The notes under the pieces: model-generated
What the model was told of the DNA's origin: nothing
What the model saw: only the letters and a program-made list of their open reading frames with translations
Databases searched by the model: none
Shown: positions 3,025-21,177 of the stretch, piece after piece
Layout: every line of letters begins with the position of its first letter
Numbering within the stretch: the first letter of the stretch is position 1
Program-made: the position numbers and the translations under genes
From: a virus
Direction: 5' to 3' (one strand)
DNA: 21,178 bases
Virus record (IMG/VR): IMGVR_UViG_3300020470_002117
Coordinates: 1-21,178 of that record

Positions 3025-4623
3025 TTAAGCGTGGGCGTAGTAGATGTATTCTTTACCAGTATTATTAAAATCATCGTTCCCAGAGTAAAAATCAAAACCA
3101 CCACCACCAGAAGAAACAGGATCACCTACGTCCTGATTAGTTTGAGCAAGATCTGTTAAGAATATTTTCTTATCATCACCTGATCCCCATCCTCTAGTTG
3201 TGTCAAATACAACCCATTTACCTGTTCCATCACGACGTTTTACTAATAAAAATCTTGGCGTAAAACCAAGATTCCTTATTTGTAATTGACCGCTTACTCC
3301 TGTATAGCTACCCACGGCTGAAATTCCCGAAATGCTGGCGAAGAGCATCATAATAAAATTAGACGTGCCCGTATCATTAGTAACTTGACTAGATCCAAGT
3401 GTTACGACAGAAGCCGTGGGAGCTGTGTCATTCCATCTATTAGCCGAATCAACTTCGGCAGAACTCGTATTTAAAACTAAATGATATTGTTCTGGATTGG
3501 TTCCACCGTTCAATCCTTTGTGATAAACCATCCAATCCCTGGCAGAACCATCTCTTCGCTTGCACCAGATCATTTCTGGAACAACGCCTAAATTATGGTT
3601 AATTTGTAAACCTGCTACACCTGTGGCCTTGTAGGTCACCACATCAAACCCCGCGTGGCGTTTAAACATCCAGGCCATATAGGGACTATCGTAATTTTGA
3701 AAAACCCCGTTCTGATAAGGAAACGTCGAATCTGAATCAGAATCTTCTGAACTAGTGTTATTTGGGTATACTCTCTTTCCTTCAATTAATCTTGCTGAAA
3801 GTCGCCAATCTTGTTGGTTGGCTGGTTTCTTCATGAGAACCATATCAACAACATGTGATGAGTCAAAAGCAGGAGACCCAGCACTACCTGCTGCATCCAT
3901 AGAGAATACGTTTGTTCCAGCAGTTATATTTTCAGGATTCATTGTCTTTCCTGTTTCTGCTGCAATAGCAACATACATATAGCTTTTACCTGAAACATTT
4001 ATACCTGAAGATCCGCCAACTTGAAGCAAAAAACCATCTGCCAATGGATCAGATTGAGGCCAAGTCCATTGATTATCATTTTTATCAACGTCTACAACTT
4101 TGTCTCTTTCTGCGGTGACTGAAGATGTCCCGTTAACAGCCCAACCTCTCATATTGTCCTGAATCTGTGGACGGCCCATATTTGGGTCTGTATCACTTTC
4201 TATTTGCTTTAGTAATAACCAACCAGGCTCAAACGGTAATGAAATTTTATTATCACCTGCATTACCCGTTCCATTGTACTTACCGCAAGAAATAATTGAT
4301 TGTGTCCCATCTGGTCCAAATTCTGCTTCCTCATGAGCAAAAATAAAAGCAATATATTGACCAACCTTATTATTATCAGAGCCTACAACAAATTGAGTAG
4401 CACTTACACTATTCACTGAAGCATTAGCATCAGTATTAACAGCATCCTTACTATTTAACTTCCAGAATTGATTTGTACTAAGGCTACGATGCCAACATAT
4501 CCAGTTTTCACTCCCGTTGTATTGCTTCAACATAATAAAGCCAGGAGTAGAACCAAGGCTATGGTTTAGGGTTCTTGCTGATCCATCAGATCCTGTTTTT
4601 TCCCAAGTAACTATATCGAGAAA
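3025..4623 (-). repeat. Two diverged ~325-residue tandem copies within the DUF7483-like protein
   Basis: Residues about 138-461 and 462-669 align as an A+B module pair. Shared landmarks recur about 325 residues apart: DIVTWEKTG versus DVVTYKATG, LNHSLGSTPGFIMLK versus INHNLGVVPEMIWCK, and WICWHRSL versus WMVYHKGL. The second copy is shorter because the trailing B-like unit is absent. The DNA of the copies is strongly diverged, so this is an old duplication. Confidence 0.65.
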
Positions 4624-5034
4624 TTTTTCTTTCTTTTTAAACGTCCAAGAAACATAATCAGCACCACTAGTATTTTCTCTTGTGCCTGATCCTATTGAAA
4701 AACCATTATTATTAAAAGAACTTAAACCATTAGAGCCATAATTAAGACCAGAAGCCTTGTTAGGCGAATTATACATAAAAAGAGAATCACCAGACGAGTA
4801 AAAGGTTCGAGTGAACAACATGTGATCAGCAACGTTGTTACCTGTTGATCCAGTTAACTTTTTAATCCATACAATTCCATCTTCTGAACCACTTAAATCA
4901 ACACCTGTATTTATTGATCTTGCTGTTGCATTCCCCTTGTAAACACATGTTTTGAAAACATCTTCTACCCCTAATTTTTCAGCGCCAGCAGCACCAGCAG
5001 CACCTTGTAAAATCTTGAGAGTACTAGGGTCCAT
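3025..5034 (-). CDS. DUF7483-like repeat tail fibre/adhesin protein
   Basis: The product has 669 residues with no cleavable signal. After a helical N-terminus (to about 25) it is built from repeated beta-rich modules. Type A units (about 138-235 and 462-568) run F.DVVTW/YxxTG, a NHxLGxxPxxIMxK segment and W..WH/YHKGL. Type B units (about 245-356 and 573-669) run YTGTG...LGFxPxxLLVKxxDGT..W..FD..RGW, and each ends near an aromatic strand (YMYVAIA, YIYYAHA). More diverged B-like units lie at about 29-131 and 372-456. This matches DUF7483 as I know it from marine phage fibre proteins, so a host-surface contact role at the virion is inferred. It starts 9 bp after the 260-residue fibre gene, with no clear Shine-Dalgarno. 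The family call is from motif reading. Confidence 0.85.
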   Translation of the reverse strand: MDPSTLKILQGAAGAAGAEKLGVEDVFKTCVYKGNATARSINTGVDLSGSEDGIVWIKKLTGSTGNNVADHMLFTRTFYSSGDSLFMYNSPNKASGLNYGSNGLSSFNNNGFSIGSGTRENTSGADYVSWTFKKKEKFLDIVTWEKTGSDGSARTLNHSLGSTPGFIMLKQYNGSENWICWHRSLSTNQFWKLNSKDAVNTDANASVNSVSATQFVVGSDNNKVGQYIAFIFAHEEAEFGPDGTQSIISCGKYNGTGNAGDNKISLPFEPGWLLLKQIESDTDPNMGRPQIQDNMRGWAVNGTSSVTAERDKVVDVDKNDNQWTWPQSDPLADGFLLQVGGSSGINVSGKSYMYVAIAAETGKTMNPENITAGTNVFSMDAAGSAGSPAFDSSHVVDMVLMKKPANQQDWRLSARLIEGKRVYPNNTSSEDSDSDSTFPYQNGVFQNYDSPYMAWMFKRHAGFDVVTYKATGVAGLQINHNLGVVPEMIWCKRRDGSARDWMVYHKGLNGGTNPEQYHLVLNTSSAEVDSANRWNDTAPTASVVTLGSSQVTNDTGTSNFIMMLFASISGISAVGSYTGVSGQLQIRNLGFTPRFLLVKRRDGTGKWVVFDTTRGWGSGDDKKIFLTDLAQTNQDVGDPVSSGGGGFDFYSGNDDFNNTGKEYIYYAHA

Positions 5035-8345: not shown

Positions 8346-11300
8346 TTAAAGCACCACCCAAGTTCTACCTGTGGGTATTGTAATCGTTACTCCATTATTT
8401 ACCGTTAACTCACCAACTGAAACAGCATTCTTACCAGAACCTAATTGATAATTTGCTGTAACTGTATGGTCATTTTCTATAAATACTTCATCAGTAGATC
8501 CTCCAGTTGCTCCAGCCCCACCTCCAATTGCTCCCCATCCTGTACTTGAATAACCTTCAAATTGATTAAGAGTGCTGTTATATCTAAACATCCCAGTATT
8601 AGCCGATCCGGGTCGTTGTGCTGTAGTACCAACTGGAATATCAAGAACGCCAGTTCCACTCATTAAAATATCTCCGCTTACAGTCAGGCCAGTTAACGTG
8701 CCAACACTTGTAATTGCTGATTGAGCAGCTCCAGTAACGGTTGCAGCCGATCCAGAACAATTTCCAGTGACATTTCCAGTTATATTTCCACTAAATGTTC
8801 CTGTAATTGTTCCACCGTTTGTAATATCGTTTGTGCCTAAATTGATGTCACCAGACATAGTGCCGCCAGCCAACGGGAGCTTCGTTGCGTCTGTGGCAGC
8901 GTCCGTTGCCCATTCAAGAGTTGTAGGTGTGCTTGCATTAGCTTTTAAAACCTGACCTGCTGTAGGGCTGGCTGCTGGAAGGCTGATTGTATAACTGGAT
9001 TCTGAACCTTTATCTGTTGCCCCTTTAATTCCTACATAAGCAGTACCATTTCCATCTGCTTCGTAGAAACGAACTTCTTTATCATTATCTACAAGTGCAT
9101 TACCAGTTAATGTTCCTCCCGCTTTTGGGAGAGCTGCGTCAGCTAAATCGTAAGCAGATTTAACAGCGTTAGGAGTAGCAGCAGTGGTAGTGCTAGTGCT
9201 TGAAGTTGAGTCAGTTAGTTGAAGAACACCAACTGCACTTGTTGTTCCAATAGTGATCTTGCTTCCAGCAATTGCAGCACTAGCATTTATATCAGCGTTA
9301 ACAATTGCACCAGCAGTAATAGAAGTTAAACCTGCATTTGTTATCCCTATATCACCTGTAACTGCAACTGCTGTAGCTACATTTGATCCGTTACCAACAA
9401 GGATTTGAGCAGAAGTTAAAGCAGCTAATTTACTGAAAGCAATTGCAGCCGTGGCAGCTAAATTTGCATTAACTAAACTTGCATCAACCATTGTTGATGT
9501 AACTGTATTTGTATCTCCGCTTGTAATTACTGTGCCAGTTACGTTAGGCAAAGTAATAGTTTTATCTGACGTTGTTGGATCGGCAACTGTTAATGTTGTT
9601 TCAAATGAGTCAACAGTCGACCCTTCAAATACAAGGCTTCCACTGTTACCAATTAACACCTGACCTGTAACAGTACCACCTGCTTTTGCTAATTTTTCTG
9701 TTTCTACTTCTTGAATCGCATCTTGTACATTTGTACTTGAAATCTGCCCGTATGGACTAAACGTAATATTCGAAGCAACTTGTCCCGCAATTGTCTGAGA
9801 AAGATCAACCTCATACCAGCCACTACCTGATGAATTAGTAACACCTAAAATGTAATCAGGAGGAGCAAATGCAATAGCTGGAGCAGGCGAACTTGGCGTT
9901 CCAGCCGTTGCAACCACGACATATACACCATCTGTAGTAGCAGATGCTGTAGGAAGATTAGATCCAACAGACAAACCAGCAGCAATACCAGCAGATGTCG
10001 TAGCAACCATCTGGCTCGTATTTGCGTTATAGGTTCCACCAAAAACAAGACTTCCCTTGGTCAGCGTTGTTATCGCCTGCCAAGCGTTTCCATCCCAGAT
10101 AAACGCATCCTCAGAAACAGTATCAAACAGAATCTGGCCTGAGAACTGAGCCGTTGGATAACCACTTTGGGCAATAGATTGAAATATTGCTACAGAACTA
10201 TTGCTGAGTTTTGTTCCGTCAATACTGTCTGTACCAATTCTTGCAGCGTTTATAGTTCCAGAAGTCAATAATGCTGCACTGTGATTAGGTAAATCAGAAT
10301 CAGCAAGAGCTGCAAGACCTGTAACTCTTCCCTTTGCATCTACAGTTACTTTTGTATTCGTACCAGCAGTAACTCCTGAATCAACAACGGTTAAAGCACC
10401 ATTACCATCAACAGATAAAGGCCCACCTGTCGGAACAGAAACACCACCTACAGCACTAGCAGTAGCAAGAGGTAAGTCGCCAGCCGCTAGGGTCGCTGTT
10501 CCTGTTATTTGTCCAAAATTATTAAAGGTAACTTTTGTCGCTGTAGCACCAGTTGTTGTTGCTGCAATAGATAAAGCACCTGCACCAGTAACAGAAAGAC
10601 CTCCTGCACTAGCAATTGAAACACCACCAACAGCAGATGTAGTTGCAATAGGCAGATCACCAGCGGCGAGAGCAACAGTTCCAGTAATGAGTCCTTGAGC
10701 GTTATATGAAATACCTGAACGAGTAGCAGCCGTAACTGTGTTATTTATTCCAAGGTTCCCGCTGGCTACATTTAAAGACCTATCAAGGTTGGAAGAATTT
10801 AATTTCGCTGGGGTTATTTCACCATCTTTTATTTTTGCATTTGTAACAGCATCAGTAGCAATTTTTGCTTCGATAACAGCATTGCTAGCTATCGCTCCAG
10901 CATCGACAGAATTATCTGCTAACTCAGAAGCTGTTATTGCATTTTGAGCTATTTGAGTAGCAGTAATAGTATCGTTGGCAAGCTTTACACCAGTTATCGA
11001 TCCAGCGCCTAATGAACCAGCAGCAATAGTTCCGTCTAACTTTGCAGCATTTACAGCTCCATCAGCTATTTGATCTGTTCCAATGGCTCCATTAGCAATT
11101 TGCGTTGCTGTGATTGTGTTATTAACAATATTTCCAGCAGCGATAGTCTGACTTGCAATCTTCGCTCCAGTGATTGCTCCACTGGCAACAGCAGCAGTAT
11201 CAACAGCATTGTCAGCAAGTTCTGTGGCAGTAACAGAATTAGTTGCTAATTGAGTAGCAGTAATCCCTCCAGATGCAATTTTTGCCCCAGGTATATCTCC

Positions 11301-11771
11301 ATCGCTTAAGTTTAATTTTCCATAAGCAATTGTTGTATTTGCAATTCGATCATTATCAACAGCAAGATCAGCAATAGCAGCAGTATCAACCGCATCATCA
11401 GCTAACTCAGAAGCAGTTATCGCATTAGCAGCAATTTGTGTTGCAGTAACAGTATCGTTAACTAACTTCGCTCCAGTTATCGTTGCGTTTGCTATCTGCG
11501 TTGCTGTAATAGTTGAGTTAGCAATCTTGGAAGCAGTTACAGCTAAATTTTGAATCGTTGCTGTCGCTACGGCATCAGCAGCAAAAGGCGTTGCAACTTT
11601 GGCAGCAGGTATATCTCCAGAATCAATAAGAGCTACACCAGCCGCTACTAAGTCTTTTACAGTGACCTTCTTCGTCTCAGTCGCACTTAGATCAGCAAGG
11701 GCTAATACATCAGTGTTTTGTATCCCTGCTTCTGCTAAAGCAGGCAGATTACTTATCTGTAGATCAGCCAT
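8346..11771 (-). CDS. Large repeat-rich tail fibre protein
   Basis: The product has 1141 residues, Ala/Thr/Ile-rich. The N-terminus (LQISNLPALAEAGIQNTDVL, then KKVTVKDL) is the attachment-type start seen in cyanophage fibres. Residues about 64-325 are short-period ITATQIAxxAITxxxLADxAV repeats, probably a beta-helical or triple-stranded shaft. Residues about 346-500 hold three ~60-residue repeats ending in GDLP or SDLP. A WDGNAWQAI segment follows, then three AGGTxTG/SG motifs typical of fibre shafts. The C-terminal domain contains PVGTTAQRPGSANTGMFRYN and finally TIPTGRTWVVL, a tip style I recall from marine cyanophages. The 31-bp gap upstream has no clear Shine-Dalgarno. It is the first of five fibre-type genes and probably the main shaft; host-receptor contact is inferred. 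Confidence 0.9.
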   Translation of the reverse strand: MADLQISNLPALAEAGIQNTDVLALADLSATETKKVTVKDLVAAGVALIDSGDIPAAKVATPFAADAVATATIQNLAVTASKIANSTITATQIANATITGAKLVNDTVTATQIAANAITASELADDAVDTAAIADLAVDNDRIANTTIAYGKLNLSDGDIPGAKIASGGITATQLATNSVTATELADNAVDTAAVASGAITGAKIASQTIAAGNIVNNTITATQIANGAIGTDQIADGAVNAAKLDGTIAAGSLGAGSITGVKLANDTITATQIAQNAITASELADNSVDAGAIASNAVIEAKIATDAVTNAKIKDGEITPAKLNSSNLDRSLNVASGNLGINNTVTAATRSGISYNAQGLITGTVALAAGDLPIATTSAVGGVSIASAGGLSVTGAGALSIAATTTGATATKVTFNNFGQITGTATLAAGDLPLATASAVGGVSVPTGGPLSVDGNGALTVVDSGVTAGTNTKVTVDAKGRVTGLAALADSDLPNHSAALLTSGTINAARIGTDSIDGTKLSNSSVAIFQSIAQSGYPTAQFSGQILFDTVSEDAFIWDGNAWQAITTLTKGSLVFGGTYNANTSQMVATTSAGIAAGLSVGSNLPTASATTDGVYVVVATAGTPSSPAPAIAFAPPDYILGVTNSSGSGWYEVDLSQTIAGQVASNITFSPYGQISSTNVQDAIQEVETEKLAKAGGTVTGQVLIGNSGSLVFEGSTVDSFETTLTVADPTTSDKTITLPNVTGTVITSGDTNTVTSTMVDASLVNANLAATAAIAFSKLAALTSAQILVGNGSNVATAVAVTGDIGITNAGLTSITAGAIVNADINASAAIAGSKITIGTTSAVGVLQLTDSTSSTSTTTAATPNAVKSAYDLADAALPKAGGTLTGNALVDNDKEVRFYEADGNGTAYVGIKGATDKGSESSYTISLPAASPTAGQVLKANASTPTTLEWATDAATDATKLPLAGGTMSGDINLGTNDITNGGTITGTFSGNITGNVTGNCSGSAATVTGAAQSAITSVGTLTGLTVSGDILMSGTGVLDIPVGTTAQRPGSANTGMFRYNSTLNQFEGYSSTGWGAIGGGAGATGGSTDEVFIENDHTVTANYQLGSGKNAVSVGELTVNNGVTITIPTGRTWVVL
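10272..10736 (-). repeat. Three ~60-residue repeats ending in (G/S)DLP
   Basis: Residues about 346-500 contain GLITGTVALAAGDLP, GQITGTATLAAGDLP and GRVTGLAALADSDLP, ending near residues 374, 434 and 495. The first two are followed by ATxSAVGGVS, and GALS or GALT strands lie between units. This is consistent with a regular beta-structured shaft segment distinct from the preceding short repeats. Confidence 0.65.
10797..11582 (-). repeat. Short-period TATQIA/SELADxAV coding repeats in the fibre shaft
   Basis: Codons for residues about 64-325 encode degenerate units of roughly 5-12 residues (ITATQIA, ITASELADDAVDTAAIA and relatives). A longer super-unit recurs: residues 105-139 match 266-300 (NDTVTATQIAANAITASELA versus NDTITATQIAQNAITASELA). 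The protein copies are close but the DNA differs at many synonymous sites, with only short identical stretches such as GCTTCTGAGTTAGC. Confidence 0.75.
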
Positions 11772-11802: not shown

Positions 11803-12669
11803 TTAAACCTGTTCGAGCAATATGGGACTTTCATCTTCTTGTAAAACTTTATCTGAGTTCTCCTGTAATAGATAACCAGCAGTGTCACCAGTCTTTAATC
11901 GAATAACTCCATTGGTTATAAATTCAACTCTAGTCTCAATGACTTCCGCAGGAGTAACACTTACAGCAACATTAGTAATAATACAATTCGCTTCGTAATA
12001 AACGTTTTTAGCAGAATTATTTGGATCACGGTAAATGTAAAACAAACCATCAAAATCTGATCCTTGCTGTGTCCTAACGATTAACTGAGCAAGATAAAAA
12101 GGAAATTCTGGATCGCCACCATATTCATTTTTTCTATCTCCCGTGTCATAACTATGCTCCCAAATGCAACTCATTGTTCCTTGACCGCTAATTAATCCAG
12201 CTTCATATTGATTCCTAAATTCATCTCCAAGGTTTGTTAAATCAACTTGCTCTCTACTCGTTGTCATCTCAAAATCTCGAACATTGGCAACATGCCTATA
12301 CCTTTCATTTCGAGTCCTTACTAAAACATCTTTTGCTGCACTAGGAGTGACAAGAGTTAAAGCGTTTGTCTGTAATCCTTCTATTGCTTTCGGAAATGTG
12401 TCATATAAACGAATACCTCCCATAGGATCAACATTAATAAACCACTTGCCATCTGGGTAGCTATGACCATTAACAAGTTCGAGCGTTGAACCATCAACCG
12501 TTTCAATTTCTACTTCATCTCCTGTCAACAACGAACCAGAACTATGATCAACACTAAATCTCTTTGTTGAAGTGTTTACATCAAAAGGATCTAACTTCGT
12601 CTGCAAAGCAGCTTGAAGTGCATCTCTTTTAAGGGCTATTTCACCCGATTGCCCAAAATAAACACCCAT
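11803..12669 (-). CDS. Tail-tube-fold-like minor tail protein with C-terminal LLQE repeats
   Basis: The product has 288 residues. Residues about 118-175 (RTRNERYRHVANVRDFEMTT, then VDLTNLGDEFRNQYEAGLIS and GQGTMSCIWEH) follow the pattern of the tail-tube protein family: ...W/FxMTxxxxxVDxTxLGDxxRxxxxGLxSGxGxxxxxW. The N-terminal 110 residues are beta-rich (TGDEVEIETVDG, GKWFINVDPMGG). The C-terminus has three short strand-like units, YLLQENSDK, VLQEDESP and ILLEQV, a motif type common at ends of cyanobacterial phage proteins. It lies 3 bp after the 144-residue tube-like gene and upstream of the fibres, so an adaptor between tail tip and fibres is a reasonable inference. Possibly a second tube-like paralogue. 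No clear Shine-Dalgarno precedes the ATG. Confidence 0.75.
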   Translation of the reverse strand: MGVYFGQSGEIALKRDALQAALQTKLDPFDVNTSTKRFSVDHSSGSLLTGDEVEIETVDGSTLELVNGHSYPDGKWFINVDPMGGIRLYDTFPKAIEGLQTNALTLVTPSAAKDVLVRTRNERYRHVANVRDFEMTTSREQVDLTNLGDEFRNQYEAGLISGQGTMSCIWEHSYDTGDRKNEYGGDPEFPFYLAQLIVRTQQGSDFDGLFYIYRDPNNSAKNVYYEANCIITNVAVSVTPAEVIETRVEFITNGVIRLKTGDTAGYLLQENSDKVLQEDESPILLEQV

Positions 12670-12672
12670 GAT

Positions 12673-13107
12673 TTAGATAGATACTTCTGTAGGTGCTCCA
12701 TTTGATTCCCAACTAATATCAGCACTTAACACTTCACCAACAGCACTATTCATTGATATTCCAGTAATCAAAGTCGAGAAGGTAATAAAACGACCATTAG
12801 CAGAACCATCAACAATTTTTAGTTTTAAAGTTGCAGTAGTAGAGGTCATATCTGTACTACCAGCAGCTTTAATACATTTACCAATTAATGTTGTTACATC
12901 TCCGCCAGACCCAGCAGAAGCTTGATAGTAAAACAATCTTGCACTGCCGCTATAACTTCTAACTCCTTGAACAATTGTTCTGTCAGTGTCTTCTAAACTT
13001 GTTGTTTCAAGAACAGCTTGTGAACTAGAAAAAGACCAAGATTGAACTTTGGCGGCTTTAGTGCCGTCAATAAAAAGCTGTCCGTCCTTTCCGCTATAAA
13101 AAGCCAC
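12673..13107 (-). CDS. Phage tail tube-like protein
   Basis: The product has 144 residues from a GTG start (13105-13107) with a weak AGG four bases upstream; no ATG lies nearby. Residues about 7-60 (KDGQLFIDGTKAAKVQSWSF, then LETTSLEDTDRTIVQGVRSY and SGSARLFYY) fit the tail tube protein family (G.L.ID.T...V..WS.....LETTSL.D..RT...G.RS.SGSA...YY). The second half (TATLKLKIVDGSANGRFITF, then ISMNSAVGEVLSADISWESN) is also typical of that fold. The family normally assembles the hexameric tube and is encoded before the tape measure. Here it lies after the J-like gene, so it may instead be a distal tube-fold protein, and the true major tube gene may lie to the right of the window. Confidence 0.8.
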   Translation of the reverse strand: MAFYSGKDGQLFIDGTKAAKVQSWSFSSSQAVLETTSLEDTDRTIVQGVRSYSGSARLFYYQASAGSGGDVTTLIGKCIKAAGSTDMTSTTATLKLKIVDGSANGRFITFSTLITGISMNSAVGEVLSADISWESNGAPTEVSI

Positions 13108-13135: not shown

Positions 13136-13537
13136 TTATATGGGTGCATCCAAACAAGCAACAAAACTACAGCTCACATTACTGATACCAGGGAAAACAC
13201 TTGTAACGTTTGGAGGACCAGAATATCTCCATTTTAAAGGAGTTCCTTCTTTGAAAAAGGCTTGAAGTTGACTATCAGCACCATCAATAACATTTGTTCC
13301 ATCAAAAGTCACGTTATCCCATACAGAATTAACAGCTTCATAATTAGACAAAATACTTGCTGCTTGAGCATCAGTAATATTACTAAAACCCAATGACAGT
13401 GTTGCGTTCGTTCTGTTTTTTCCATAACGAATCACAGTTTTAACACCATTTTGAGCTTCAAACTCTGCTTGTGGATATGTGCCAGGAGAATAACTTCTAG
13501 TTGTAGGAGTTGGAACGGAAGCAGGAAAACTAGCCAT
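13136..13537 (-). CDS. Minor tail protein (lambda M-like pattern)
   Basis: The product has 133 residues. FPASVPTPTTRSYSPGTYPQ, then FEAQNGVKTVIRYGKNRTNA, then TLSLGFSNITDAQAASILSN and YEAV form a pattern resembling small siphophage minor tail proteins: PG.YP...F...NG....I.YG....A.L.LGF.NI.D..A..I...Y. The C-terminus (LKWRYSGPPNVTSVFPGISN) has a GPPxVxSVxPG strand typical of these proteins in cyanophages, as I recall. The ATG has a good Shine-Dalgarno (AGAGGA, 8 bp spacing) embedded in the end of the J-like gene, whose stop lies only 2 bp upstream. A structural role near the tail tip is inferred from position; the M-like label is tentative. Confidence 0.7.
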   Translation of the reverse strand: MASFPASVPTPTTRSYSPGTYPQAEFEAQNGVKTVIRYGKNRTNATLSLGFSNITDAQAASILSNYEAVNSVWDNVTFDGTNVIDGADSQLQAFFKEGTPLKWRYSGPPNVTSVFPGISNVSCSFVACLDAPI

Positions 13538-16500: not shown

Positions 16501-17898
16501 AAAACCAAGAACAGGATCTTTTGTCCATCTATTACCATTATCTTCTTGCTCTACTGTCATTAGAGTAGAACCAACCATATATTGCTCCCCTACACTCATT
16601 ACATCATCAACATTCTCCCGTGTTGTATCAGCAACAGCTTTAGCATCTGACGACCCCCAAGGAGAAAACTTTGTCCATTTCTTTGTTGGATCTGAGTTGG
16701 CAATTGTTGAATCTATAAATGCACTTTCGTTTTGATTGTGATAAATCCGATAATTAACACTTAAAGATCCAGGGACTACTTCATTTGGCCTTAAGACAAC
16801 ACCATTTCCCGCACTTGAATGAGTAGGAGAACTTCCATGATTAGTAATTCCTACATATCTAGGATATTTATGATAAATTTTTCCCATTTTAATCCTTGTA
16901 TCTGCTTTAACACCATCATCTGCATCTAGAGGAAGTAGTAATAATTCCCAATTAACCTTATAAGCATTGCCATTAGGCATAGGTGAATAAACACCAAAAG
17001 AACTATTAGTAGAAGGCGTTTTCGTGCTGCTAAAACTAGGTCTGTATGAAACAGAATTATTACTAACGACTTTTACAAGGAACGGATCATTGTCGTCATA
17101 TTCCCTATTAAATCTATTACCATAATTATTAGCATTTGGGGATGATCCTTCTTGGTATTGATCATGAGTAATTGAAGGTGTTTGAGTATCTGCTACACCT
17201 TGCAATCTCCCATCAGACCTTGCACCTCTAGAAAAATATACTTTTATCTTTGACTCAGCTAAATCTGCTAAAAAAACTTCTCCTAAAGCTAAAGACTCAT
17301 ATTTTGGTTTAGATCCTATTTCTCCATTAGAGAACAAAACAATGGCATTAATAACTTCGCCATATTGAGCTGTTCTTATTTGCGACCAAAGAAGTTGACT
17401 TGCAACCCTTACTCCTTGTCTTGCGTAAACCAAAGGAATAAAAGAACCAAGAGCTGCTAAGTCCTGAACAGAATCAAATCCACTTAAAGGATTAAATCTA
17501 CTTCTACCTTGAACGCCACCAATTTGTAATCTTGGAGACTGACTAGGATCTTTTGGCTTAGGAGTTAAAGCATAGGAAATAGCAGTCATTGCAACGGCAA
17601 CTGCAATAGACCCCCAAGCGGAAAGAGTAGCTGTTGTTCCTACTGTTGAAACCATCCAACCCGGCAAAACCGCAGCGGCTGGACCTGCCACGATATTAGG
17701 AATATGATCGTATTCCTTCTTCCTTTCAGGGAAATAAGCTTCGGTTAAATCTAAAAATTCAAAATATTCTTTCTCTGTAATACCTAACGATTCACAAAGT
17801 CCTACTTCATAGGGCAATAACGTTCTAAAACCGCCAATCCGTCTATGGGGTTCCAACGAACCGTCTTGTCTGCGAATGATAGCCAACCTCTTTCCCAA
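13540..17898 (-). CDS. Tail tip attachment (lambda J-like) protein, possibly I-J fusion
   Basis: The product has up to 1452 residues. The start is uncertain: every candidate before residue 82 is TTG (residues 1, 5, 15 and 28), and the frame overlaps the NlpC/P60-like gene by up to 97 bp. Residues about 26-70 (LLPYEVGLCESLGITEKEYF, ERKKEYDHIPNI) form a conserved-looking N-terminus. A Gly/Ala-rich hydrophobic stretch (about 71-111) follows, then SPRLQIGG and GSFIPLVYARQG, which begin the J-like part. The most diagnostic block is about 1090-1180 (NFVEIAHDLLTNKSYGAGDV, YCKANNFHWNGIID, EHAGYNFLDFSILGGRFSLR), followed by a phage-tip pattern around 1271-1320 (CTHKEHAKLFAAIALS, then FGLLAGDYIRV). J-like proteins form the host-contacting tip. 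The hydrophobic part resembles the membrane-active region of I-like proteins. Confidence 0.9.
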   Translation of the reverse strand: MGKRLAIIRRQDGSLEPHRRIGGFRTLLPYEVGLCESLGITEKEYFEFLDLTEAYFPERKKEYDHIPNIVAGPAAAVLPGWMVSTVGTTATLSAWGSIAVAVAMTAISYALTPKPKDPSQSPRLQIGGVQGRSRFNPLSGFDSVQDLAALGSFIPLVYARQGVRVASQLLWSQIRTAQYGEVINAIVLFSNGEIGSKPKYESLALGEVFLADLAESKIKVYFSRGARSDGRLQGVADTQTPSITHDQYQEGSSPNANNYGNRFNREYDDNDPFLVKVVSNNSVSYRPSFSSTKTPSTNSSFGVYSPMPNGNAYKVNWELLLLPLDADDGVKADTRIKMGKIYHKYPRYVGITNHGSSPTHSSAGNGVVLRPNEVVPGSLSVNYRIYHNQNESAFIDSTIANSDPTKKWTKFSPWGSSDAKAVADTTRENVDDVMSVGEQYMVGSTLMTVEQEDNGNRWTKDPVLGFSKAIRLKADEPGYLEFRNTDETREPYESLVVQKVELATFSNTKECDITQVGLKSTVWRRINGFPNVNEMPSQPRIASYEKANGSIQIGQVSKYVKRLSFFKIQAKRMSSGDDFADISSTVICVKGSAPVAQYNSIDIQHFNPSQYEFRFLPVPGNVVLNYYQGVVHVLDYAAPRQQESNYTLGLSLVYHARVEQLPTNKKNGNSFTNNTEWDRGGLGGAIDVATGQPVQDITGPVEQFAPLTDNNPCPNVSDLQWSFNTVNNGLGAFGLVPITTYQGIGPGNVDSRTLPNSHPQIHDGYWTNVTNYNLKGTPAVGNSYYSPQKGIVAIRVPHSDTHYRWVFIFGGTLIPNGVTVEYLKPRGHKPITDSDWTSPVQYRNPDGTMAQVWHRFRVAVNPSSLGGKEDWRGGHPNGHDHFAVAVQKASRQPPTTTVVAKQTTAVTGSGTGMIVEVTTTSDSSNTCKRYSLFSGGSGYKDGDRVSVNGESHTVTVQIVPPTIDPPDVDTHGNWTEKEKEFYRNYWSIVKHNPNNAIADYFLFDAESSSHENGPEHELTHVNEIVHAGYSNAPQINYEHLAIAGIRVGATNTLSSFNSFSAFIEQGIIVDRLVNDSNNGLPTRGSLKASTDNFVEIAHDLLTNKSYGAGDVVGHDGVDRLSMIEGAKYCKANNFHWNGIIDRQFNLREFIFEHAGYNFLDFSILGGRFSLRPSFPVNSDYTINYDATIDSGIDIKALFTDGNMKGIKVSFLTPEERKMFKATVIYRDDRRNENKIAGFPENIAKTYAYNPTGQNANDFFPTAEQLPEEVFDLSNWCTHKEHAKLFAAIALSIRKEVDHGIVFDTPPSSVFGLLAGDYIRVLTEATHTSRFNNGSIDANGYVTSRATISGSINTYCWTPGTLGGIEEKSFSVGSDGKNSLGLTNKLFAQVDNTTEDRIYKVESITYGEEGFIQIAASHAPLFNNKLAVLYNANPYAAANGINFIDRFPELRGL
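13546..13551 (-). promoter_or_regulatory. Shine-Dalgarno for the 133-residue minor tail gene
   Basis: The minus strand reads AGAGGA inside the last codons of the J-like gene, 8 nt before the ATG at 13537. Most other starts in this operon lack a match this good, so the gene is probably translated efficiently on its own. Confidence 0.6.
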
Positions 17899-18161
17899 TA
17901 AACTGCTAAAGCGTAACCTTTTTCTGCTTTACAGAGAGCTACAACTCCGATATTAGCGGTTGTTGTAAGTGTTCCCCACTTTTTCAATTCATCACGAAAT
18001 ACGTCATAGTCTTTTTTTCTTAAACGTCTGTACCATTCACGCTTTTGACAAGGAAAATCTATACCGTAATTTTTAAGAACTTCTCCTGCAAGAGAAACAC
18101 AATCAGCAGCTTTATGTTTATCAGGGGTAGCACCTAAACGATAAGGCAACCCCAATAGCAT
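17802..18161 (-). CDS. NlpC/P60-like tail protein (lambda K-like) lacking the catalytic His
   Basis: The product has 119 residues from ATG 18161, chosen because AAGGTG lies 9 nt upstream. A GTG at 18173, overlapping the preceding TGA as GTGA, would add four residues. GLPYRLGATPDKHKAADCVS, then LAGEVLKNYGIDFP, fits the NlpC/P60 start (GxPYRxGGxxxxxxDCxxL), with Cys as the nucleophile. Where the family normally has HxGIYxG, the sequence reads KGYALAVYWERGWLSFADKT, so no histidine follows the Cys anywhere. If the alignment is right, peptidase activity is doubtful and a structural role likely. Lambda K is encoded between L and I/J in the same way. The 3' end overlaps the J-like frame by about 97 bp. 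Confidence 0.75.
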   Translation of the reverse strand: MLLGLPYRLGATPDKHKAADCVSLAGEVLKNYGIDFPCQKREWYRRLRKKDYDVFRDELKKWGTLTTTANIGVVALCKAEKGYALAVYWERGWLSFADKTVRWNPIDGLAVLERYCPMK

Positions 18162-18169
18162 AGGAGTCT

Positions 18170-18715
18170 TCACCTTGTTCTCATCGCAGCAGTAACAGGA
18201 ATATGACCAACCAAACTACTTGTTAAGAAACGTCCTATATTTCCACCTACAGCATCAATAGAAGATGTCAATAAAATTTCAATTGAGCTTTTGTCATAAC
18301 CCATCGAAGCAATTTTCCACGTGTCAACAACTAATACAGTCTTGACAGAACTAAAAGTCAAATCAGTCATTTGACAAGTATAAACTCTAACGCTCCAACC
18401 ATTATTAACAGCTTCTGCTGCATAACTCATCGACAATTTGTTCGTACCTACAGAACCTTCTCTATCTTCACTTTCATTTGCCAAAATCAAAGTTGACTCA
18501 AGATTATTCCCATCTTTGCTTCTAGTTGCACCTTGATAAAGGAACGAAAGATAATTGAATCTTTGATTATTTCCTACTTTTGGATCAGTAATACCAGTAG
18601 AAGTAGGCTCACTGTTTTGAAAACGATGCTGAACGGCACCAGAAATATCACCTGAATCTGAAACCTTTGTAGGATCATAAATCTCTATAAAGGTAACTAA
18701 AGCAATAGCACTCAT
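18170..18715 (-). CDS. Minor tail protein (lambda L/M-like, distal tail)
   Basis: The product has 181 residues, beta-rich throughout. Its ATG overlaps the tape-measure stop (TAATG), with AGGA upstream. Landmarks are the early ALVTFIEIYDPTKVS, a central FNYLSFLYQGATRSKDGNNL, then LESTLILANESEDREG, RVYTCQMTDL and VLVVDTWKIASMGYDKSSIE, and an ending of RFLTSSLVGHIPVTAAMRTR. A terminal P.T...R-type strand with a preceding R.L..S..GH.P resembles small tail-hub proteins of the L/M/DUF1833 kind, which connect the tube to the tip; the specific family is not settled. Cysteines number one (YTCQM), so an Fe-S centre like that of lambda L is not supported. Position between tape measure and NlpC/J-like genes matches the lambda order. 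Confidence 0.65.
   Translation of the reverse strand: MSAIALVTFIEIYDPTKVSDSGDISGAVQHRFQNSEPTSTGITDPKVGNNQRFNYLSFLYQGATRSKDGNNLESTLILANESEDREGSVGTNKLSMSYAAEAVNNGWSVRVYTCQMTDLTFSSVKTVLVVDTWKIASMGYDKSSIEILLTSSIDAVGGNIGRFLTSSLVGHIPVTAAMRTR
18171..18176 (-). promoter_or_regulatory. Shine-Dalgarno supporting the ATG start at 18161
   Basis: AAGGTG on the minus strand matches the anti-Shine-Dalgarno at AGGTG and lies 9 nt before the ATG at 18161. It overlaps the GTG at 18173, so it cannot serve that codon; this decides in favour of the ATG start. Confidence 0.45.
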
Positions 18716-21177
18716 TACATTCCTATCCTTGATCTAGCAGAGCGATTATTTTGCATTGCTTTCATGGTAGAAGTTTCACCCATAGCAGCACCTTGTCTTG
18801 CAGCCGTTGAAATAATCTGACCAACAGCAGATTTAGGAATAAATTCTTCAGAGTTAAAGTTCAATATCGGACCAGAGTAGTTGACGGTAGTTGACGAACC
18901 AGCTCCGCCTCCTGTGGATGATTGACCAGTCCCAGGGATCACAGATTCACCCCTAGCCCCTGCTGAATACCGTTGCATTGACTGAGCCATCTTAGAGGCT
19001 GGAATAACGTACTCGTCCTCACCAGCTTCTCCCACAAGTCCTATTGTGGGCTTAGTAACTAAACCACCTTGATTAAATGGCCTGATTCCATTAGCGACAT
19101 AAGCACCTTCAGCAACCTTTAATCCAAACGCTCCAAAAATTGCTTTCTTTAACATCAAGCTTGCAATTTGTTTAGCAATACCAGCAAGAGATTCTCCAAG
19201 AGATTTAGTTCCGTCTATTAAGCCCATAACAGCATTATGTAAACCTCCAGCAATTGTTTCTTTAACAGATTCAAACGCTTCTTTTAATTTATTAACAGCA
19301 GGAACAGATTTGTTTTCTGTATTACTTGTTCCTTTTTCAAGTTCTTTATTTGTTTCTTGAACAGTGCCAAGATATTCTTTCCAAGCCTTATTAATATCGC
19401 CACCAGCTTTTGCAATTGCATCTTGAAATTTGCTCATATCAATAAATCGTTGATTGCCTTCTTCGTCTTGATTCCATCCTGCTAAATCTCCTTTTAAATC
19501 ATTAAAACCTTCAGCAAAAGGTTGAGCTGCACTACTCGCTACTGAAGCAACTTTTTCTCCTGCTCCTTTTAAAAATTGTTTTAACTTATCTGGAATAGCA
19601 TCCCAAACTCTTTTTATTCCGCCACTAATAAAATCAAAAATTCTTTTAAAAATTTTGCTAATTATTTCTGCTAGACCTACAAATATATCCCTTAGCCCTG
19701 TAGCAAAACGCATAAATCTTTCTCTTGCGTCAGTTATTACTTCAGGGATAACTTTAAACAAAGGATCAAAAGCTAAAGCAATTGAACCAATAGCCGTTCC
19801 TATTGCTGTTGCAACAGCTTCTACTAATTGAAAACCTTTTTCAACTTTCGTCAAGAAGAACGTCCAAGCTTTTGTAATTAAGACAATTGCACTATTTCCT
19901 TTTCCAAATTGCTCTTCAAAAACAGCTCCAACACCAGCAAACAATTTAAACAACAATCGAACAGGCAACATTAAAGTTTTTATTGCTATTCCAAGAGCGT
20001 CAATAACAACAGAAACACCTTGCAAAGTTGTTTTTATCGCTATACCTAATTCACTTTGATCTGCAAATAAATTACTAAATGATTTAGCCACCCGATCCCA
20101 TGCCCCTTGAATAGTATTACTTGCTTCAATTTGTGCATTAGCAGCAGCTCCAGATGCGCCCTCTTGATTTCTAATTAGCTGCTCATATTTTTCTAAGTCT
20201 TTTATTAATGGAGCCATCACCTGAATAGCTTCCTGACCAAATATTGACTCAAGAGATTTAATATCCAGACCTTCAAGCTTCTTCAAGTTTGCAGCTAATC
20301 CTTCAGAGGCAATAGTTGAAGCGTTTATATCAATGCCTAGTTTTGCTAATTTTTTACCACCTGCTTCTCCAGTTAATCTTAAAAGGGCTGTTTTCATGCC
20401 AGTAAAGGCAACTTCAGATTTAACACCTGCTGCTGTTACTTGAGCTATTGCAGCATTAACCTCTTTAAGCGGAACATTCATTGTCGCAGCAACAGAAGCG
20501 ACCTTACCTATGTTTTGTGCATATTCAGCTACAATTATTTTTCCATCGTTCTGTGTTTGTATAAATTGATCTACTAAAAACTGAGCATCTTTAGCACTTT
20601 TTCCATAAGCATTTAAAACACTTGTTGCAGCATTTCCAACAGTATTAATATCACTAAACCCACCTGTTGCACCTTGACTTGCTGCTTTTAATATCATTGC
20701 AGCATCAGCAGCTTCTACAAATCCAGCAGAAGCAACGTCATAAGCAGCTCCAGTTAATTCAGCAACACTTGCAGATCCGTTTAACTCAATACTTACAAGC
20801 TTTAATTTATTAACTAAGTCAGTTGAATCGCCTCCTAACGTCCTGAATTTTGCACTTGCAAACTCAACTTCTTTTAAAGTTCCAAATGCTGTAGTTAAAC
20901 CTGCTATTCCAGCAGTAAGTCCAGCCATAAGGCCGAAAGTGCTTTTTATTGCAGTGCCTAACGCTTTAACACCTACAGCACCAATTTTTGATTTAGCACC
21001 TGTAGCGACTGCGGAATTACCAAACAATCCAAGTTTTTTAGATCCTAATGCTGCCTTCCCTGCTAATTGGTCAAATGCTTTTTCTGTCTGTTTTGCTGCA
21101 ACAGCAGTCTTCTTTAATTTGGCTGGTGTCCCAAAATCGTCATATCTTATTCCAACTGTTGAAATTAACGAGGTCAC
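18715..21177 (-). CDS. Tail tape measure protein (start at or beyond right edge)
   Basis: At least 820 residues are visible, starting at a GTG one base from the right edge. Because STVGIRYDDFG lies at about residues 6-16, a common tape-measure N-terminal strand, the start may be close, but upstream codons are cut off. Residues about 105-345 are the typical tape-measure domain (DINTVGNAATSVLNAYGKSA, VAATMNVPLKEVNAAIAQVT, SIFGQEAIQVMAPLIKDLEK). Hydrophobic stretches lie at about 76-98, 384-420 and 428-470, usual in proteins that enter the host membrane. The C-terminus reads GGLVTKPTIGLVGEAGEDEY, then VIPASKM and QRYSAGARG, a tail found in many phages with cyanobacterial hosts. If the rule of about 0.15 nm per residue holds, the tail is near 120 nm. 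It heads the visible operon. Confidence 0.92.
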   Translation of the reverse strand: MTSLISTVGIRYDDFGTPAKLKKTAVAAKQTEKAFDQLAGKAALGSKKLGLFGNSAVATGAKSKIGAVGVKALGTAIKSTFGLMAGLTAGIAGLTTAFGTLKEVEFASAKFRTLGGDSTDLVNKLKLVSIELNGSASVAELTGAAYDVASAGFVEAADAAMILKAASQGATGGFSDINTVGNAATSVLNAYGKSAKDAQFLVDQFIQTQNDGKIIVAEYAQNIGKVASVAATMNVPLKEVNAAIAQVTAAGVKSEVAFTGMKTALLRLTGEAGGKKLAKLGIDINASTIASEGLAANLKKLEGLDIKSLESIFGQEAIQVMAPLIKDLEKYEQLIRNQEGASGAAANAQIEASNTIQGAWDRVAKSFSNLFADQSELGIAIKTTLQGVSVVIDALGIAIKTLMLPVRLLFKLFAGVGAVFEEQFGKGNSAIVLITKAWTFFLTKVEKGFQLVEAVATAIGTAIGSIALAFDPLFKVIPEVITDARERFMRFATGLRDIFVGLAEIISKIFKRIFDFISGGIKRVWDAIPDKLKQFLKGAGEKVASVASSAAQPFAEGFNDLKGDLAGWNQDEEGNQRFIDMSKFQDAIAKAGGDINKAWKEYLGTVQETNKELEKGTSNTENKSVPAVNKLKEAFESVKETIAGGLHNAVMGLIDGTKSLGESLAGIAKQIASLMLKKAIFGAFGLKVAEGAYVANGIRPFNQGGLVTKPTIGLVGEAGEDEYVIPASKMAQSMQRYSAGARGESVIPGTGQSSTGGGAGSSTTVNYSGPILNFNSEEFIPKSAVGQIISTAARQGAAMGETSTMKAMQNNRSARSRIGM

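Follow-up and report, generated by a model that had tools for sequence, protein, structure and literature searches.

The tubes of phage tails and the rings at their tips are thought to stem from one tube fold. Among described systems the closest parallel is found in phage T5, where the side fibres are held by a collar of p132. Enclosed by this collar is a single ring of p140, a duplicate of the tail tube protein (TTP) without its Ig domain, with the last TTP ring on one side and the distal tail protein on the other; the p140/p132 pair has been called a landmark of T5-like phages only (PMC10038345). In lambda, the tip is anchored to the tube by gpM, whose topology is identical to that of gpV-N (PMC10721106). 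For T4, the T5 paper cites gp54 and gp48 as one or more extra tube-like rings between the baseplate and the first true tube ring (PMC10038345). These T5 and T4 cases were the only other tube paralogues met with in a literature search that was not exhaustive. TTP-derived tube-fold tip rings are already known; what is new, as far as the searched literature goes, is that an uncultured marine clade has two such paralogues behind the central tip gene, sharing a cassette with a gpM homologue that has changed place.

The locus lies in a viral sequence of 21,178 nucleotides (IMG/VR record IMGVR_UViG_3300020470_002117, positions 1 to 21,178), hereafter the window, whose operon runs on the minus strand from the tape measure protein (TMP) gene through gp181, an NlpC-like gene, the J-like gene, gp133, F144 and F288 to the fibre gene and more fibre genes (Table 1), with a gap of 3 nt between F144 and F288. 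The window stops at the start of TMP, so the tube and chaperone genes fall outside it and the phage's own TTP is not seen. Besides its best match, the J-like protein resembles phrog_1727 (tail protein and host specificity, 1.1e-4) and phrog_32 (0.09), and its N-terminal stretch weakly resembles the tail assembly protein gpI. In contigs L054, L063, L065 and L141 the J gene consists of two ORFs (about 860+530 or 898+556 aa). The fibre gene cluster of the window also contains a 669-aa protein at 3025-5034 with a DUF7483 match of 9.6e-73, and past the fibre region, at 739-2097, lie two proteins matching phrog_570 and phrog_605, the first of which has relatives in large cyanophage genomes (>130 kb), which suggests shared fibre-region genes.

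Table 1. Tail genes of the window, in the order of transcription
Feature	Position	Strand	Evidence
Tape measure protein (TMP)	18715..21177	-	phrog_991 1.3e-50, PF10145 1.4e-22; runs to window end
gp181 (F181), remote gpL (hub) homologue	18170..18715	-	gpL profile; PF05100 E 0.003 in G001 orthologue
NlpC/P60-like peptidase (gpK-like)	17802..18173	-	PF00877 E 0.02, sub-cut-off; conserved place
J-like central tip protein, 1452 aa	13540..17898	-	phrog_27845 tail protein 2.9e-19
gp133 (F133), 133 aa, remote lambda gpM (distal tail protein) homologue	13136..13537	-	gpM profile, hhalign, phrog_15525 minor tail protein
F144 (P0001), tail-tube paralogue without insert, 144 aa, GTG start	12673..13107	-	PHROG, AF2 fold, profiles, own clade
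F288 (P0002), tail-tube paralogue, 288 aa, ATG start	11803..12669	-	PHROG, VIA fold, profiles, own clade
Tail fibre, first gene past F288	8346..11771	-	PF03406 Phage_fiber_2 9.9e-13; after F288 in surveyed loci

The first-pass annotation had recognised tail-tube motifs in F144 and, more weakly, in F288. Both ORFs are found at their positions, the quoted motifs are present in both proteins, and in both a tail-tube fold is detected well above chance by PHROG, by comparison of AlphaFold models with solved tube proteins and by hhalign. F144 matches two PHROG major tail protein families (1.9e-6 and 3.7e-4) and F288, with its C-terminal part only, matches one of the same two (3.3e-4), the families being 10528 and 1407; among family members, a PHROG major tail protein is matched by 35/36 for F144 and 29/40 for F288. 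Confidence in the AlphaFold (AF2) models is moderate (pLDDT 70 for F144, 67 for F288). The model of F144 matches the R-type tube protein CD1364 (Foldseek E 1.3e-4, VIA Z 9.9) and lambda gpV (Foldseek 5.3e-4), and that of F288 matches the tube protein of marine phage R4C with a VIA Z of 9.9 over 109 residues, as well as many other tube proteins. With Foldseek alone F288 gives only weak matches (best 4.5e-3, to the T1 tube protein), and its tube assignment consequently rests on VIA-align and sequence profiles. The structural alignments of F288 span residues 6-262 with only about 110 residues aligned, because some 105 aa are inserted after the first strand; its C-terminal tail carries short LLQE(D/N)-type repeats that are conserved in the sampled members. 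Sequence searches of the PDB with A1, A4 and A5 returned nothing useful. On profile and model evidence, F144 and F288 are confirmed as tail-tube-fold proteins and as paralogues of a separate major tube protein.

The existence of that separate protein ahead of the tape measure, a question already raised in the first-pass annotation, is answered by close relatives. Scans of viral contigs yielded 73 relatives of F144, 80 of F288 and 68 of TMP, and whole contigs carry head genes, an adaptor, Neck1, a tail terminator, a 252-256-aa protein (TTP252, PHROG major tail protein at 1.4e-6), a chaperone of about 120 aa and TMP. TTP252 upstream is combined with F144 and F288 downstream in 31 contigs (44 loci minus 13 duplicate copies of the same contigs), L140/G007 being the sole exception among the loci with long upstream sequence. 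The window phage itself probably encodes a TTP252, to judge from its relatives; the TMP of L126, for example, is 94% identical to that of the window over the N-terminal 392 residues. The slot of the major tube, from terminator to chaperone and TMP, is occupied by TTP252 in the relatives and not by F144 or F288, which stand after J; the idea that F144 is simply the major tube protein in an odd place was rejected on this ground. Even G025 (L166), which has a 138-aa TTP before the chaperone, carries F144 and F288 after J.

Tube genes vary in other respects among these phages. Two adjacent, clearly different tube genes precede the chaperone and form two parallel clades in S-H1 (L002:19582-19998 and 20001-20423), where they are annotated as hypothetical, in L210 (3255-3671 and 3674-4090) and in L174 (167-583 and 586-1008). 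Genome G005 has an extra 138-aa tube gene between the presumed terminase and portal genes (L203:7678-8094), in addition to TTP252, F144 and F288, which makes four tube-fold genes in one genome. In L209/L210 (G018) and L232/L233 (G020) the tube and chaperone genes are far from TMP and on the opposite strand, and the MED4-117 record (L004, NC_020857.1) has tube and chaperone genes at both ends (611-1030 and 38473-38805), which has the appearance of a redundant end of the assembly. In the major tube protein at L091:240-998, the insert (residues 21-134) matches phrog_967, a baseplate wedge tail fibre protein connector (1.4e-5).

The kinship of the tube families was assessed with hhalign, 30 other families of these genomes serving as background. 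TTP138, a protein of 138-140 aa that is the single tube protein in cyanophages of the S-H1/MED4 type, was compared as a further tube family. Scores of 52-118 were obtained for the pairs TTP252-F288, TTP252-F144, TTP138-F144, TTP138-TTP252 and TTP138-F288, and of 29-33 for F144-F288, with unrelated families at about 16-24 in nearly all comparisons and one chance match at 29.5. The matches to TTP252 (F144 6.9e-9, F288 3e-10) are above background, and of the paralogues F144 is the closest to TTP138 (hhalign 118; tree grouping 87/89). F288 and TTP252 carry their inserts in the same place, and insert against insert scores 18.4, within background, as against 63.5 for the tube parts; with the F288+TTP252 grouping only at 87/89, the insert as proof of descent from TTP252 is unsupported. 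In a maximum-likelihood tree of 146 columns F144, F288 and TTP252 each form one clade (100/98), and the deeper joins are weak (87/89) with long branches. Median dN/dS values of 0.16 for F144 and 0.12 for both F288 and TTP252 indicate purifying selection, which together with the single clades points to old paralogues kept together. The repeated duplication of the tube gene considered in the first-pass annotation is not borne out as a recent or recurrent process within the clade: there are two old, separately conserved paralogue lineages.

The position of the tube-like genes after the J-like gene, first noticed in the window, is general in the group, the order TTP-chaperone-TMP-gpL-NlpC-J-gp133-F144-F288-fibre being kept in 31 contigs. 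When the survey was started from gp133 rather than from the tube genes, F144 was the next gene in 68/68 loci with at least 500 bases downstream; F288 was also seen in 65 of them and F144 alone in 3. The spacings are narrow (J-gp133 -4 to +15 nt, gp133-F144 26-36 nt, F144-F288 -1 to +6 nt, F288-fibre 30-41 nt). The extra tube copies have a constant place, with tip genes on one side and the fibre gene on the other. The clade is an uncultured, widely sampled marine group; searches found no cultured phage with F144 or F288, and a search of bacterial genomes found no copies of F288. The tail genes are akin to those of Synechococcus and Prochlorococcus phages, and a cyanobacterial host is suggested for the clade.

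The neighbour of F144 in this cassette, gp133, is by profile comparison remotely homologous to gpM, which forms the distal-tail ring of lambda. A gpM profile built from S-H1, MED4-184, L177, L144 and lambda was searched against 10,072 ORFs and gave 37 strong hits and 89 further ORFs at 1e-6<E<1, of which 89/89 belong to the gp133 family (best reversed-sequence E 4.1), and in the same test with a gpL profile the gp181 family accounted for 24/24 of the matches at E<1 (reversed best 2.0), these counts not being independent since the ORF sets include overlapping copies of the same contigs. By hhalign, gpM-gp133 scores 35.9 (24.5 for the best unrelated family) and gpL-gp181 37.7 (24.6), and F144 and F288 compared with the gpM profile are at background level. 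The Pfam models PF05939, PF09343 and PF08875 gave no match at gp133 or F181 in these genomes, and PF05100 matched weakly (E 0.003) at F181 of one genome, G001; the links to gpM and gpL were obtained solely with clade-built profiles and amount to remote homology only.

In the lambda-like relatives of the group (S-H1, MED4-184, L177 and L144) a true gpM (PF05939, 2e-13 to 4e-29) directly follows TMP, and gpL comes next, as recognised by Pfam in S-H1 and MED4-184 and by PHROG in L177. In the window gp181 overlaps TMP by 1 base and leaves no room for gpM there. S-CBS3 and S-LBS1 have two gp133 (gpM-like) homologues each after J (L227:17001-17369 and 17366-17890; L228:16008-16559 and 17001-17441), and no tube paralogue was detected in either, so that this arrangement does not depend on the paralogues. 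On this gene order, the distal-tail gene has moved behind J, and the marine clade has two tube paralogues beside it.

Set against the described systems, F144 and F288 resemble T5 p140 (DT57C gp116, tail tip middle protein) in being tube-fold paralogues of the phage's own TTP and in a link to fibre attachment, here a putative one. Just as p140 is without the Ig domain of its TTP, F144 is without the insert of TTP252. F288 is unlike p140 in having an insert of its own. The gene order differs as well, as the table numbering of DT57C (TTP gp117, TTMP gp116, TMP gp113) places the p140-type gene beside TTP and before TMP, whereas F144 and F288 follow J in every surveyed locus; there are, moreover, two paralogues here, one with an insert, and they travel with a gpM homologue. 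Sequence kinship to the own TTP is detectable for F144 and F288, whereas p140 and pb6 are only 9% identical (PMC10038345). The T4 rings are comparable as extra tube-like rings at the baseplate end of the tube, but belong to a contractile myophage and are tied to sheath assembly (PMC10038345). Lambda gpM/Dit is a tube-fold ring between tube and hub, with the homologue gp133 as the neighbour here, but F144 and F288 belong to the TTP lineage. The cyanosiphoviruses S-H1, MED4-117/184 and P-HS2 have homologous TTP, chaperone and TMP, but S-H1 and MED4-184 keep a lambda-like order with gpM after TMP, and no post-J tube paralogue was detected in the S-H1/MED4-117/184/P-HS2 group.

With moderate confidence, we propose that the tube ends, next to the hub, in rings made of F144 and F288; the grounds are where their genes lie, the gpM-like neighbour and the precedent of T5 p140. 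A gene's place in the operon is no proof of where its product sits in the virion, and the collar, hub or fibre-adaptor use suggested in the first-pass annotation would rest on the same three grounds. The shaft would be built from a separate 252-256-aa tube protein encoded before TMP, as in the relatives, and F144 and F288 would each contribute one tube-fold ring, prolonging the channel from the last shaft ring to a gp133 ring on the gpL/J hub. These rings would stack via the usual tube loops with a different outer surface exposed. F288, which adjoins the fibre gene and has the conserved repeat tail, would be the likelier fibre anchor, its C-terminal tail being a candidate fibre dock, and the insert-free F144 may be a smooth spacer or starter ring, like T5 p140. 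The insert of F288 is a departure from the insert-free p140 and counts against placing it in such a tip ring. A broader and more doubtful proposal is that a whole distal-tail module was transferred to behind J and that the tube fold was twice co-opted as a fibre platform, which would give three ring types past the shaft (two tube paralogues and the relocated gpM-like protein) in one cassette with the fibre gene.

The same features could be read differently. F144 and F288 might be outer collar proteins or fibre adaptors around the tube or tip, outside the channel and only joining the fibre to the tail, as the position of F288 immediately ahead of the fibre gene at the loci surveyed, its repeat tail and the outer ring that holds fibres in the T5 collar (PMC10038345) would allow; this seems unlikely, since both proteins retain the tube fold in full and are related in sequence to the shaft protein, and the known collar p132 has an Ig fold and no tube fold (PMC10038345). 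Being tube-fold paralogues, one or both might instead be co-polymerised along the tube as minor tube proteins, and S-H1-type relatives do have two adjacent tube genes in the canonical slot. Such a mixed shaft is improbable, however, as the genes lie after J with the gpM-like gene, have diverged separately from the shaft protein for long, in unmixed clades, and adjoin no second chaperone. More improbable still is that the main tube is made of F144, leaving the upstream 252-aa protein with a different role: of the paralogues F144 is indeed the closest to the 138-aa single TTP of S-H1/MED4-type phages, but the 252-aa gene stands between terminator and chaperone/TMP, and G025 has both a 138-aa TTP before the chaperone and the pair after J. 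The tip-proximal rings are the reading we retain.

For annotation, the locus is a warning: an annotator relying on gene order alone would take F144 for the major tail protein and overlook the true tube gene as well as the distal tail protein. For the evolution of tails, one phage clade contains a shaft protein and two tip-side paralogues that can still be aligned and placed on a tree, beside a displaced gpM homologue, and so allows the origin of specialised end rings and fibre adaptors from a repeating tube protein to be put to the test. The arrangement suggests that in these marine phages the last rings of the tube are built from special parts, which possibly hold the fibres.
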